In this document: one piece after another, positions 2,054 to 23,530 of the stretch
Position numbering within the stretch: the stretch's first letter is position 1
Layout: each line of letters begins with the position of its first letter
Virus record (IMG/VR): IMGVR_UViG_3300042401_002500
Location: 1-25,356 of that record
Direction: 5' to 3' (one strand)
Length of the DNA stretch: 25,356 nucleotides
From: a virus
The notes under the pieces: model-generated
Databases searched by the model: none
Seen by the model: only the letters and a program-made list of their open reading frames with translations
What the model was told of the DNA's origin: nothing
Translations under genes and position numbers: made by a program

Positions 2054-2842
2054 ATGAACAAATTTAAAACATACGGACAATTCATTAACGAGTCTAAACA
2101 AGATAATATTGTTAATGTTATCCTAGATGCATTGGAACCTACCCTCATTGAGATGTTAGCTGCAACTGAAAAATGGTTTGTAGAGACTTTTAAACAAGAA
2201 TACACAAAGTATGACAGAGAATATGATAGAATCAATTTAACTTATGATATGGTTAAATCTATTGAAAAGTATACCCAACCAACTGATTCACTGTTATCAA
2301 TGAACGTTCGTAAGAGTGTTAAAGGAAATATTCAAATTGATGCTCAAATCCAAAGAGGAGAAACTACTTATAGTTTTGCAACTGAAGCGATTTATGCAGG
2401 AGGACATAATATACAAAGACTTCATTATAGATATCTTGTTAAGACTAGTCTTCCAAAAACTGGAGCTAATCAAATTGCTAAAGAATATGCAGAAAAAATT
2501 AAGAAAATGTCTAAACTTGAACAACTAAATAAAGACATTAACAATTATGAGCTGCGTATTGAAAAGCAAAAGGCAGAACTTGAAGTTAACTCTAAATTAA
2601 CCGATACTGAATTAAAATTAAAGGCAAAAGTCGCTTGGCCGACTTGGGAAGAAATTGTAAAAAGAGATGCTGCTAAGAATTATAATAATGATGAAGCACA
2701 CTACTATCAAGAACAAGAAAAAAACATACAACGCCAAATTGATTCATGGAAACAGATTAATGTTATTTCAAAACAACAATGGTTAGTAAGTGTTACCAAA
2801 GAAGTTAAAAAACTACAGGCAAAACGAGATTCTATGGTATAG
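2054..2842 (+). CDS. Candidate capsid-packaged internal protein with T4-like targeting peptide (262 aa)
   Basis: The first 14 residues (MNKFKTYGQFINES) closely resemble the capsid-targeting sequence of T4 internal proteins (MKTYQEFIAEA). They contain I-N-E followed by Ser, which fits the T4 prohead protease rule (Ile/Leu)-x-Glu before a small residue. Cleavage would remove residues 1-13. The rest has no domain I recognise. It is charged and mainly helical, with coiled-coil-like stretches at about 150-192 and 215-258, and a central segment (about 82-132) that looks beta-rich. No membrane segment or signal peptide is present. It lies between a terminator and the amidoligase-like gene and probably forms a unit with the latter. 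Packaging into the head is an inference; a scaffold-type protein is the main alternative. Confidence 0.85.
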   Translation: MNKFKTYGQFINESKQDNIVNVILDALEPTLIEMLAATEKWFVETFKQEYTKYDREYDRINLTYDMVKSIEKYTQPTDSLLSMNVRKSVKGNIQIDAQIQRGETTYSFATEAIYAGGHNIQRLHYRYLVKTSLPKTGANQIAKEYAEKIKKMSKLEQLNKDINNYELRIEKQKAELEVNSKLTDTELKLKAKVAWPTWEEIVKRDAAKNYNNDEAHYYQEQEKNIQRQIDSWKQINVISKQQWLVSVTKEVKKLQAKRDSMV

Positions 2843-2894: not shown

Positions 2895-4187
2895 ATGAAT
2901 AATCTAAATGAATCTAATATTTTGCAAAATGCCCTTGTTGGTGTTGAATTTGAATTTTACTCAAATTTCAGTGCTGAAGAAACTGCAAAGAAACTTGCAA
3001 AATTGCTTGGCAAAAAGATTCACGTCGAGGAAAAAGCGCATAGCGATTTTGAAGTAACTCGTGATGAATTTAAAATAGAACCTGATATGTCAGGTGGAGC
3101 AAAACTTCTTGAATTGGTTACCGGTGCCCTTCCATATACCGCAGCCAGATTGATGATAATTAATGTTTGTCAATGGATTCAAGAAAATGGATATACAAAT
3201 GATAGGACTTCGATTCACTTAAATCTTTCATTTGATAAATCAAAAATTGAAAACAAGTACCGTATTTCTAAAATGAATGTTCTTAAGTTTATTTTAGATT
3301 TTAATGAAGAGCAAGTCTTCAAATTCTTTCCTAAAAGAGAAAACTCAGCCTACGCAAAATCTATCAAATTTGTTCTACCAAAAGAGGACACATATTTCTT
3401 TGATGGAAAACATATCAATCAACAGAATTTTATTTACCCTGATACAAAATATTATGGGATAAATTTTGACAAAAGACATAAAAATTATCTTGAATTCCGT
3501 TATATTGGAGGAGAGGACTGGGAAAAGAAAACAACTACAATTCTCTATTTAGTCGACCGTTTCCTACTTCAATTATGGAAATCAACCGAAAATCCAGACT
3601 TTACGGAATTAAATGCAATCGAATTAAAAAAGATAGTTGCAGATAATCAAAGAATAATCGACGCTAGAAGGGACTGGAAAACAATTAGAGATAATTGGAA
3701 AAATGTTAAGTTCACTGTCGATATGGATGACAATCCTAAAGTAGTTGACCTATACTGGAATTCAGTCAAAGAACGCGTAATGAAATTATTTACACACGGA
3801 GACCTTAGTAAAGGACATATTAACTATGACACAGATGCTGGTAAAATTCAAGTAAATGGAGGTCGTCTAGAATATTGTGTTGACCTTAGAGGTTATGAGT
3901 TTGTAAGTTGTTTCCTACGAGGAGAATTTACTGAATGCGATATGTATGGATGCGACGTTAACGGTTCTGATATTCATTATTGTAATTTCTATCAATCAAC
4001 ACAGCTTAATAGTTCTAAATTAGATGGTTCTTATGTTCATGGAACATGTACTGCAAACGACTGTTATGTATATGGAAAAGGAACATTTAAAGGAACAATG
4101 AATGGAGGAATCTTTAGAGAGGGTTCGTTTGATAAAAAACTGGCTAAATTTAACGATGTTGAAATTGTTAAGTCTAGAGCAATATAA
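2895..4187 (+). CDS. Putative amidoligase (COOH-NH2 ligase) with C-terminal pentapeptide-like repeats (430 aa)
   Basis: Residues 14-205 carry, in order, the features I associate with the phage amidoligase family (Amidoligase_2, glutamine-synthetase fold). These are VGVEFEF (Glu18, Glu20), IEPDMSGG then LELVTG (Glu62, Asp64, Glu73), IHLNLS (His108, Asn110) and LEFRYIGG (Glu200, Arg202). Such enzymes are predicted to join a carboxylate to an amine using ATP and metal. Residues about 326-385 repeat every five residues (CDMYG, CDVNG, SDIHY, CNFYQ) like a pentapeptide-repeat helix, a fold used for protein contacts. The N-terminus contains L-N-E before Ser7, a possible prohead-protease site. The start is fixed by an in-frame TGA immediately upstream. 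The substrate is unknown. The family call is from motif recall, without a search. Confidence 0.72.
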   Translation: MNNLNESNILQNALVGVEFEFYSNFSAEETAKKLAKLLGKKIHVEEKAHSDFEVTRDEFKIEPDMSGGAKLLELVTGALPYTAARLMIINVCQWIQENGYTNDRTSIHLNLSFDKSKIENKYRISKMNVLKFILDFNEEQVFKFFPKRENSAYAKSIKFVLPKEDTYFFDGKHINQQNFIYPDTKYYGINFDKRHKNYLEFRYIGGEDWEKKTTTILYLVDRFLLQLWKSTENPDFTELNAIELKKIVADNQRIIDARRDWKTIRDNWKNVKFTVDMDDNPKVVDLYWNSVKERVMKLFTHGDLSKGHINYDTDAGKIQVNGGRLEYCVDLRGYEFVSCFLRGEFTECDMYGCDVNGSDIHYCNFYQSTQLNSSKLDGSYVHGTCTANDCYVYGKGTFKGTMNGGIFREGSFDKKLAKFNDVEIVKSRAI

Positions 4188-21196: not shown

Positions 21197-23530
21197 ATGG
21201 CTATCGATATAAAAGAACTTTTTGTAACAGATCTGGATGCAACCGGTGGATACTGGTGGTCTAAAGAAAAAGTTGATAAGATTAATTACAATTTTATGCA
21301 ACTTTCAAACGGAGGAATGATAGGACCTCAGGGAGTTATAGGGGTAGATGGTATTAATGGTGATATAGGTCCTCGAGGATATCAAGGACCTATAGGTGAT
21401 AAAGGTCCCCAAGGACCTCAAGGAGATTCTGGAATAAATGAATGGGAATATTTTCCAGCAAGCAATGGATATCCAGGATATTTATTTCCTAGAAAAACAA
21501 GCGAAACACAGGTATCTCCTGTTTCTTTAAAAATTGGAGTAGATGAAAATGAAAGTGCATCGATTAATCAAGATCCTTCGCAGACTGTAGTAGCCCATGG
21601 GACGTCATACATAGATCCTAATGATAATATTAATGTTCCTGTAGTTAATTTAAGAGTTGAACATAATGGGTCAATATATGGTTATAATTTTCAATTTTTA
21701 AATCAGGAAAATGGTACTAATAAATTTAAAATTTTTCCAGGGATTTCTACTCCTGTCTTTAACGTTATTTTTACAGCACAGAAAATAGTAATAAAATCAA
21801 AAATAGGTTTAGATGTCATTGGCGGTCCTATTTTTGATGATTCAATTATTATTGATGATTCTTTAATTAAAGTAGTTGATGCATCTAATACTCCCAGTCT
21901 ACTATTTAATTTAAGTAATGGTACAGGTAAATATACAAAGTCAGAGACCGCATTAGAATATAAACCAACAGATAATGAAATTACTGATAATGTTTTAGTT
22001 TCAGAAAATACAAATGGAGATCTTGCATGGAAACCGGTTAAGGATGTTTTTGGATTATTTCCAATCGGCTCTATAATTTCAATTAGATTAGATGAGTTTA
22101 GAGATGAACATTTTCATTTAAACGAATCAATAGATACAATACAAGGTTCTCCCTTAAATAATATATATGGAAGAGGTAAACCAGGTACGGATTTTGAAGG
22201 ATGGTATTTATGTAATGGAGAAACTTGGACTATATCACAAAACGAAAATACTATAAATTTTTTAACTCCAAATCTAAATAACTTTAGTTATGCTATAGGA
22301 TCAGATGGAGGGGTTCAACCATCGATTAATGTGCCAGATGGAAATGGGATAGTTATTGGAGGGTATAATTTATCGATGAATGCAGTACCAAACGCAGATG
22401 GAATATATCAAATCCAAGATACTACTAATTTCGTGGATAATAATAATTCTATTGGAACATCTAGTTTTAAAGTAGGTGAAAGTGGTGGGTATTGTGAAAG
22501 TAGGATGATTCATATAGTTTACTTAGAAAATCCAAACTTGGCATGGCAAAATATTAAACAGGCAATTGTTGCGCCTCTTGTTCCATCTTTGCCAACTGTA
22601 ACGACGGTTGGTATATCTAATATAGTCGGCAATACAGCAACTTCAGGTGGAAATATAGTTAGTGATGGTGGTGCTAATATAATAGCGAGGGGAGTTGTTT
22701 GGAGCACAATTCCAGGTCCAACAATTACAACGAATCAAGGAATTACATCAAATGGCACAGGAACAGTTGCTTTTATAAGTAATTTGACTGGATTATCTCA
22801 AGCAATAAATTATAATGTAAGAGCTTACGCGACAAATAGTGTTGGAACTTCGTATGGCGATGAATTAAGTTTTGCTATTCCATTAATTACAATACAAATA
22901 GGCACTCAAAAGTGGCTTACTAAAAACTCGGATATAACAAAATACAGAGATGGCACCGAAATACCTGAACACACTGGAACTAATGCAGAATGGGCCAATT
23001 TAAAGGTAGGACGATGGTGTTATCCAGATAACAAACTTGCAAATAATGCAACCTATGGTAAATTGTACAATTGGTATGCTGTAGCCGGTATACTTGATGA
23101 AGAATCGAATCCACCAACTGCTCTGCAAATAGCCGCTAGGAAAACATTTGCTCCTACAGGCTATCATGTGCCATCATTTGTTGAATGGGCTACTTTAACG
23201 AACTATGTAAATACACTTCCGCCTTCTGGTGATTTAGCGACTGTTGGAGGGAAAATGAAATCAACAGGAACTATACAATTAGGTACTGGTTTGTGGAACA
23301 CCCCTAATATGGGAGCTACTAATAGTAGTGGTTTCTCAGGTCTTCCGGGAGGGATTCGCCACACCAGTGGAACGTTCGACTTGATTGGCACCAACGGTTT
23401 CTGGTGGAGTTCGTCAGAGTACGATACACTAAACGCCTGGAACCGCAACCTGAATTACAACTACGGCAATTTCACCAGTTACAACTACAATAAGACCTTC
23501 GGTTTCTCGGTGCGATTAATACAAGACTAA
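21197..23530 (+). CDS. Collagen-like tail fibre with collar, fibronectin-like and FISUMP receptor-type domains (777 aa)
   Basis: Domains in order: an N-terminal anchor (1-38, with VDKINYNFMQL); 13 Gly-x-y collagen triplets (Gly40-Gly79); a beta-rich shaft; a tail-collar-like unit at about 285-445 (FPIGSIISI, EGWYLCNGETW, RMIHIVYLENP); a Bacteroidetes fibronectin-like domain at about 465-560 (SGGNIVSDGG, ARGVVWST, YNVRAYATNS); and a Fib_succ_major (FISUMP) domain at about 566-777 (QIGTQKWLTKN, GKLYNWYAV, APTGYHVPS, GFWWSSSEY, GFSVRLIQD). Collagen and collar parts make trimeric fibre shafts, and the last two domains are typical of Bacteroidetes surface proteins. It most likely binds the host surface. 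GC rises clearly toward the 3' end, suggesting a domain acquired from bacteria. Confidence 0.92.
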   Translation: MAIDIKELFVTDLDATGGYWWSKEKVDKINYNFMQLSNGGMIGPQGVIGVDGINGDIGPRGYQGPIGDKGPQGPQGDSGINEWEYFPASNGYPGYLFPRKTSETQVSPVSLKIGVDENESASINQDPSQTVVAHGTSYIDPNDNINVPVVNLRVEHNGSIYGYNFQFLNQENGTNKFKIFPGISTPVFNVIFTAQKIVIKSKIGLDVIGGPIFDDSIIIDDSLIKVVDASNTPSLLFNLSNGTGKYTKSETALEYKPTDNEITDNVLVSENTNGDLAWKPVKDVFGLFPIGSIISIRLDEFRDEHFHLNESIDTIQGSPLNNIYGRGKPGTDFEGWYLCNGETWTISQNENTINFLTPNLNNFSYAIGSDGGVQPSINVPDGNGIVIGGYNLSMNAVPNADGIYQIQDTTNFVDNNNSIGTSSFKVGESGGYCESRMIHIVYLENPNLAWQNIKQAIVAPLVPSLPTVTTVGISNIVGNTATSGGNIVSDGGANIIARGVVWSTIPGPTITTNQGITSNGTGTVAFISNLTGLSQAINYNVRAYATNSVGTSYGDELSFAIPLITIQIGTQKWLTKNSDITKYRDGTEIPEHTGTNAEWANLKVGRWCYPDNKLANNATYGKLYNWYAVAGILDEESNPPTALQIAARKTFAPTGYHVPSFVEWATLTNYVNTLPPSGDLATVGGKMKSTGTIQLGTGLWNTPNMGATNSSGFSGLPGGIRHTSGTFDLIGTNGFWWSSSEYDTLNAWNRNLNYNYGNFTSYNYNKTFGFSVRLIQD
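23399..23520 (+). other. Candidate diversity-generating-retroelement variable region at the FISUMP C-terminus
   Basis: This 3' end codes for the Asn/Tyr-rich loop region (residues about 735-772) of the FISUMP domain. Codons AAC, AAT, TAC, ACC, TTC and AGT alternate between conserved residues (Trp737-Ser739, Trp748, Leu752, Gly757, Lys766, Gly769-Val772). This is the pattern left by adenine-directed mutation of AAC/AAT codons. It ends in a GC-rich stretch just before the stop, where an initiation-of-homing site would lie. No template repeat or reverse transcriptase is in the window, so this is a candidate only. Ordinary FISUMP proteins also have Asn-rich ends. Confidence 0.4.

Follow-up and report, generated by a model that had tools for sequence, protein, structure and literature searches.

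The window analysed here is a virus fragment of 25,356 bases, about 25 kb without head genes. On its forward strand an open reading frame at positions 2054-2842, with homologues at 42 loci on viral contigs, encodes a protein of 262 residues, the start codon of which is unambiguous because an in-frame stop lies just upstream. Residues M1-S14 (MNKFKTYGQFINES) are encoded at 2054-2095. The alignment, the codons and the structure model together mark M1-E13 (MNKFKTYGQFINE; 2054-2092, forward strand) as a putative N-terminal propeptide, a tag of the capsid-targeting type ending in Ile-Asn-Glu, and the remainder, S14-V262 (2093-2839, forward strand), as the predicted mature protein of 29.3 kDa with a pI of 9.0.

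Upstream, amid structural genes, lies a gene for a 404-residue protein with S1 RNA-binding domains (744-1958; Pfam S1, 1.4e-24), which is unusual for a phage. Between it and the tagged gene a putative terminator was read by eye at 1989-2014 of the forward strand, a hairpin CCCAGA...TCTGGG followed by a run of T. This is followed on the same strand by a conserved, presumed promoter element (TTTATATTTACATTATAATTAAAA / TTTATATTTACANTATAATTAAAA; 2016-2039), 14 bases before the start codon. Many homologues have it at a comparable distance, and it also occurs elsewhere in relatives, for example upstream of a tagged reading frame at 97903 of relative G001. Directly after the tagged gene comes an Amidoligase_2-family gene (2895-4187), whose product starts with MNNLN(E/D)S; dozens of relatives also have it ahead of their baseplate genes. 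The possibility that this neighbour (MNNLNES) is tagged as well was rejected, the Glu being replaced by Asp or Asn in relatives and the aromatic residues being missing. Further downstream, a 777-residue protein (21197-23530) with collagen-like GPQG repeats and a C-terminus that by eye resembles the Fibrobacter succinogenes major paralogous domains is likely to be a tail fibre or variable adhesin.

The peptide at the start of the 262-residue protein is similar to that of the T4 internal proteins. T4 IPII and IPIII both begin MKTYQEFIAEA (translated from AF158101), with IPI showing a divergent N-terminus (MKTFKEFTST...). The initial annotation had recognised the resemblance to the T4 capsid-targeting peptide with its cut site, a resemblance that is borne out, and had counted seven of ten positions in agreement; direct comparison of KTYGQFINES with KTYQEFIAEA gives six (K, T, Y, F, I and E). 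In T4 genetics the first 10 residues of IPIII were sufficient, residues 4 and 7 being reported to matter for targeting and residues 8 and 10 for processing, with gp21 cleaving after L/I-X-E (PMC9026906). All four of these positions (Y4 and F7, I8 and E10) are matched in the window peptide, the targeting pair by Y7 and F10 and the processing site by I11-N12-E13. A 54-residue reading frame of T4 itself (L231:18966-19130), beginning MKTFKEFIKE and thus near the capsid-targeting peptide, may be a further T4 internal protein.

Nearly all of the homologues at the 42 loci carry the tag, and a profile search of the collected loci added further copies. In an alignment of 28 homologues with 38-87% identity, only E13 is without variation within the tag, and F10, N12 and S14 are kept in at least 90%. 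Position 7 is Tyr or Phe, and the residue two before the invariant Glu (P3) is Ile, Leu or, in some homologues, Val, a slightly broader choice than the L/I of T4. The codons at the conserved positions vary silently (TTC/TTT, AAC/AAT, GAG/GAA, TCT/TCA/TCC). The motif is short, with seven positions of which four are constrained, and an accidental match at the start of an unrelated protein might be considered, but with E13 invariant, F10 invariant or nearly so over silently varying codons, and 15-24 tagged frames per genome where about one would be expected, coincidence is extremely improbable.

These counts come from three near-complete relatives, G001 (234 kb; the closest, with 88.5% DNA identity to the window over the homologous stretch), G004 (256 kb) and G007 (183 kb), together with LR756500, a 462-kb phage of which the first 390 kb were covered. 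The core motif [FY]xx[FY][ILV]xE, counted within the first residues of open reading frames, was present in 24/324 frames of G001, 21/347 of G004, 15/241 of G007 and 19/517 of LR756500. Interior windows of equal size in the same four genomes gave 0-1 and shuffled N-termini about 1. Elsewhere the number of such frames was three in T4, two in PTm1, one in Lak-C1 and none in pT24, the last having a few shorter tag-like N-termini of the form M-x-I-x-x-Y-I/L-x-E. The consensus is MKHIKLFEQFINE in G001, G004 and G007 and differs in LR756500 (MKYIKEYEEFLLE). A scan of IMG/VR with one consensus gave at least 233 distinct tagged frames in at least 116 clusters among the 120 stretches listed, and the 116 clusters have no detectable similarity to one another once the tag is removed. 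The other proteins with this N-terminal peptide that the initial annotation had proposed to look for are therefore present, at 15-24 per relative genome, and the occurrence of a single tag on unrelated proteins of one genome is confirmed in the four relatives and in the IMG/VR clusters.

Tags are also gained and lost, a tagged protein of G001 having a domain 79% identical to one in an untagged protein of G004. Turnover of tagged genes was significantly faster only with respect to homologues in the distant LR756500 (for example 2/28 versus 77/223, p=0.002) and was not significantly faster between the closer genomes. A DNA ligase with MNLQDIQDFVTE was rejected as a tagged protein and regarded as a false positive of the motif, since its N-terminus already falls within the ligase profile. 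Tagged genes also occur in operon-like arrays (L130:7745-11700; L150:17696-19871 with L151:371-5277; L164:627-7203), and the genes in these, mostly without known function, are candidates for new anti-defence proteins. A scan of bacterial genomes for a host gave 120 pattern matches, none of them a relative; the nearest cultured relatives found infect Tenacibaculum.

Conservation ends abruptly after the Glu. Over the 116 cluster representatives the information content is 2.3-5.1 bits per column from position -12 to 0, although the search pattern fixed several of these columns in advance, and evidence can therefore be drawn only from the columns that it left free. The drop after the Glu and the small residue at +1 both lie outside the search pattern: the +1 column holds 0.82 bits, with Ala, Ser or Gly in 60%, and from +2 onward the columns hold 0.1-0.3 bits. 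The same pattern is seen at the end of the tag in G001, G004 and G007 and in LR756500, and it looks like the cut site of a protease.

A protease of the appropriate family is encoded by the relatives. A search of the whole window returned no protease, the record being a 25-kb fragment, and the evidence was consequently taken from relatives, because the window has no head genes. A Peptidase_S77 match above cut-off was obtained in 8/8 of the relatives tested first and also in pT24, PTm1, LR756500, Lak-C1 and two further records, with T4 gp21 as positive control scoring 372 bits; in one further fragment the same profile test found no Peptidase_S77. The gp21-like protease that the initial annotation had proposed to seek in the rest of the genome is thus present in the relatives of this fragment. 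Alignment with gp21 indicates that GE-x-HP and SSRG are retained, and these likely hold the catalytic His and Ser. The protease frames are 527-640 residues long; their long C-terminal parts are rich in Glu and resemble coiled coils, which suggests that a scaffold is fused to the protease. In T4, protease and scaffold are separate genes, 21 and 22. The apparent fusion of the S77 protease with a long region of coiled-coil, scaffold-like character is seen in L123, L126 and L128, and a second, shorter S77-like match lies at G001:C1:36115-36369 (in a 132-residue open frame), with counterparts in G002 and G003.

In G004 the head genes are arranged as a portal-like frame, a tagged protein of 125 residues, the protease fusion and a Gp23 capsid protein (Pfam 3.8e-43), an order similar to that of genes 20, 67/68, 21/22 and 23 in T4. 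The G001 protein in the gp67/68-like position carries a weaker tag (MKIIKTFEEFTSSLQE). This arrangement bears on whether the peptide might direct proteins to, or dock them at, a destination that is not the prohead (a replication compartment, the membrane or a host protein, for example), with I/L/V-x-E not being a protease site. The enzymes among the tagged proteins (P-loop kinase-like, acetyltransferase, ATP-grasp) could have a cellular role late in infection, as such a signal would allow. Against this, the conserved positions are those mapped in T4 for head targeting and processing, conservation halts after the Glu with small residues at P1', and the S77 protease adjoins a tagged protein in the gp67/68 position; a destination other than the prohead is accordingly improbable.

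Structure prediction of the 262-residue protein with AlphaFold2, using the 28 homologues, gave a mean pLDDT of 85 and a pTM of 0.68. Residues 1-13 occupy the place expected of a T4-type removable propeptide, which would fall inside the first 10-19 residues. Residues 1-16 have a pLDDT below 50 and lie outside the well-modelled core, which consists of helices, a four-stranded sheet carrying the TEAIYAGGxNIQ-HYRY motif, and long coiled-coil helices; in the model the core would fold independently of the tag. A fold search of solved structures in the PDB gave no match (best E 0.098), nor did a profile search, and no function was assigned to the core for want of a significant match among solved structures. 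With regard to T4 IPI, IPII and IPIII, the mature part gave no PHROG or above-cut-off Pfam match and no PDB match that would indicate homology, but like the T4 internal proteins it is basic (pI 9.0). In a library of viral structures, A0A516LM60 and a protein of Tenacibaculum phage pT24 match over the full length. The latter, BPT24_236, is also homologous in sequence to the mature part (26% identity over 71%) and, unlike the window protein, has no tag: a stop lies just upstream, the frame opening two codons before the start, with no space for one. Packaging is therefore not essential to the function of the core.

Another possibility, less likely than delivery into the host but compatible with the packaging step, is that the protein, once packaged and trimmed, acts as part of the head structure or of its scaffold core and is not injected as an effector. 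The gene is kept beside baseplate genes in most relatives, its product is basic with long coiled-coil helices, and its rate of change is no higher than that of other genes (60% identity between G001 and G004), placing it among the more conserved tagged proteins rather than the fast-changing ones; T4 IPIII, moreover, has a role in head assembly (PMC9026906). Yet in G007 the homologue sits inside a cluster of accessory tagged genes, T4 internal proteins of this kind are ejected, and an untagged homologue in pT24 would be odd for a core part and argues against a pure one. The conserved position and average rate of change in turn speak against a protein engaged in a fast arms race. For the mature protein, a role early in infection or in association with the genome would be most likely, because the pT24 homologue exists untagged; that it counters host defence is only a possibility.

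For the tagged set as a whole, Pfam assigned members of 76 tagged proteins to the Tad3, Acb1, 2'-5' RNA ligase-like and ART-PolyVal families, as well as to P-loop kinase/zeta-toxin-like, ATP-grasp, acetyltransferase and leucine-rich-repeat families. Among the 116 IMG/VR representatives it found Tad3, Acb1, AAA_33, acetyltransferase families and phage lysozyme. Relatives of known anti-defence proteins are thus present in the tagged set. Tad3 is an inhibitor of Thoeris, and tagged Tad3 homologues lie at 180681-181439 of G007 (E 2.9e-23) and 199513-200277 of G004 (E 4.2e-20). The Acb1-like proteins keep both H-x-T motifs and, since they score 27-30 bits, just over the Pfam cut-off, could be other 2H phosphoesterases. 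ART-PolyVal is also among the tagged cargo of pT24. Weak PADLOC hits (E about 1e-4 to 1e-3) were disregarded.

Taken together, these observations are best explained if the peptide is a capsid-targeting propeptide of the T4 type that the prohead protease removes, and if the protein that carries it lies inside the virion and is probably injected (probability roughly 0.86). Packaging, docking, cleavage and injection are here inferred from sequence. During head assembly the tag, through the aromatic residues Y7 and F10, would dock the protein onto the prohead scaffold core, the partner probably being the scaffold-like C-terminal part of the S77 protease fusion. Cleavage by the protease after I11-N12-E13 would then release S14-V262, the basic mature protein of 29 kDa, which would stay inside the head alongside the DNA and probably be ejected together with the genome into the next host. 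The tag would serve as an address common to some 15-25 unrelated proteins per phage, some of them relatives of anti-defence proteins. The main interpretation of the initial annotation is therefore supported and proves wider than stated, the window protein being one of a large tagged set. On balance it seems somewhat more likely than not that, in a clade of uncultured jumbo phages, a single exchangeable tag at the N-terminus, with a consensus varying by phage group, serves to load a large and changing set of proteins (more than 100 families across the clade, including anti-CBASS- and anti-Thoeris-like ones) into the head, so that counter-defence arrives with the DNA before phage gene expression.

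As close relatives have the same label on about 15-25 unrelated proteins, each infection by these phages probably starts with a large supply of proteins made beforehand. The tag makes the question of which proteins an uncultured phage injects answerable by sequence search, and marks the members of well over a hundred families, most of them unnamed, as likely effectors delivered by the virion; the unnamed ones are candidates for new anti-defence functions. Since homologues of established anti-defence proteins bear the tag, defences based on fast nucleotide signals (CBASS, Thoeris) may be met by inhibitors that arrive pre-made. Variation of the consensus by phage group would allow the matching of scaffold and tag to be tested, and the peptide might also be used for delivery in systems beyond T4 and P1.

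In the open-access part of the literature, the term 'capsid targeting sequence' leads to T4 and T4-based platforms, P1, SPN3US and P22, and a term search of two jumbo-phage reviews gave no mention of it. The closest known system is the tag of T4 IPI, IPII and IPIII (Mullaney and Black 1996; reviewed in PMC9026906 and PMC3012670), likewise a short N-terminal propeptide, with which the window clade shares aromatic residues three apart, I/L-x-E followed by a small residue, a gp21-family protease and unrelated mature parts behind one tag. It differs in that the tag is three residues longer (13 against 10) and follows a consensus of its own, in the number of tagged proteins (about 15-25 per genome instead of 3), in a cargo that includes Tad3- and Acb1-like homologues and in a protease apparently fused to a scaffold-like region. 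Unlike the T4 internal proteins, the tagged proteins as a set display no large basic shift in three of the four genomes. The anti-restriction protein DarB of P1 is likewise directed by N-terminal residues into the head, from which it is delivered (PMC9024508); no consensus shared by the Dar proteins was found, whereas one consensus covers more than 100 families in the window clade. The jumbo phages phiKZ and SPN3US (PMC10052503, PMC13282480) also have many internal head proteins, proteolytic maturation and N-terminal propeptides, and pT24, like the relatives of the window, has an S77 protease, and it has a few short tag-like N-termini.
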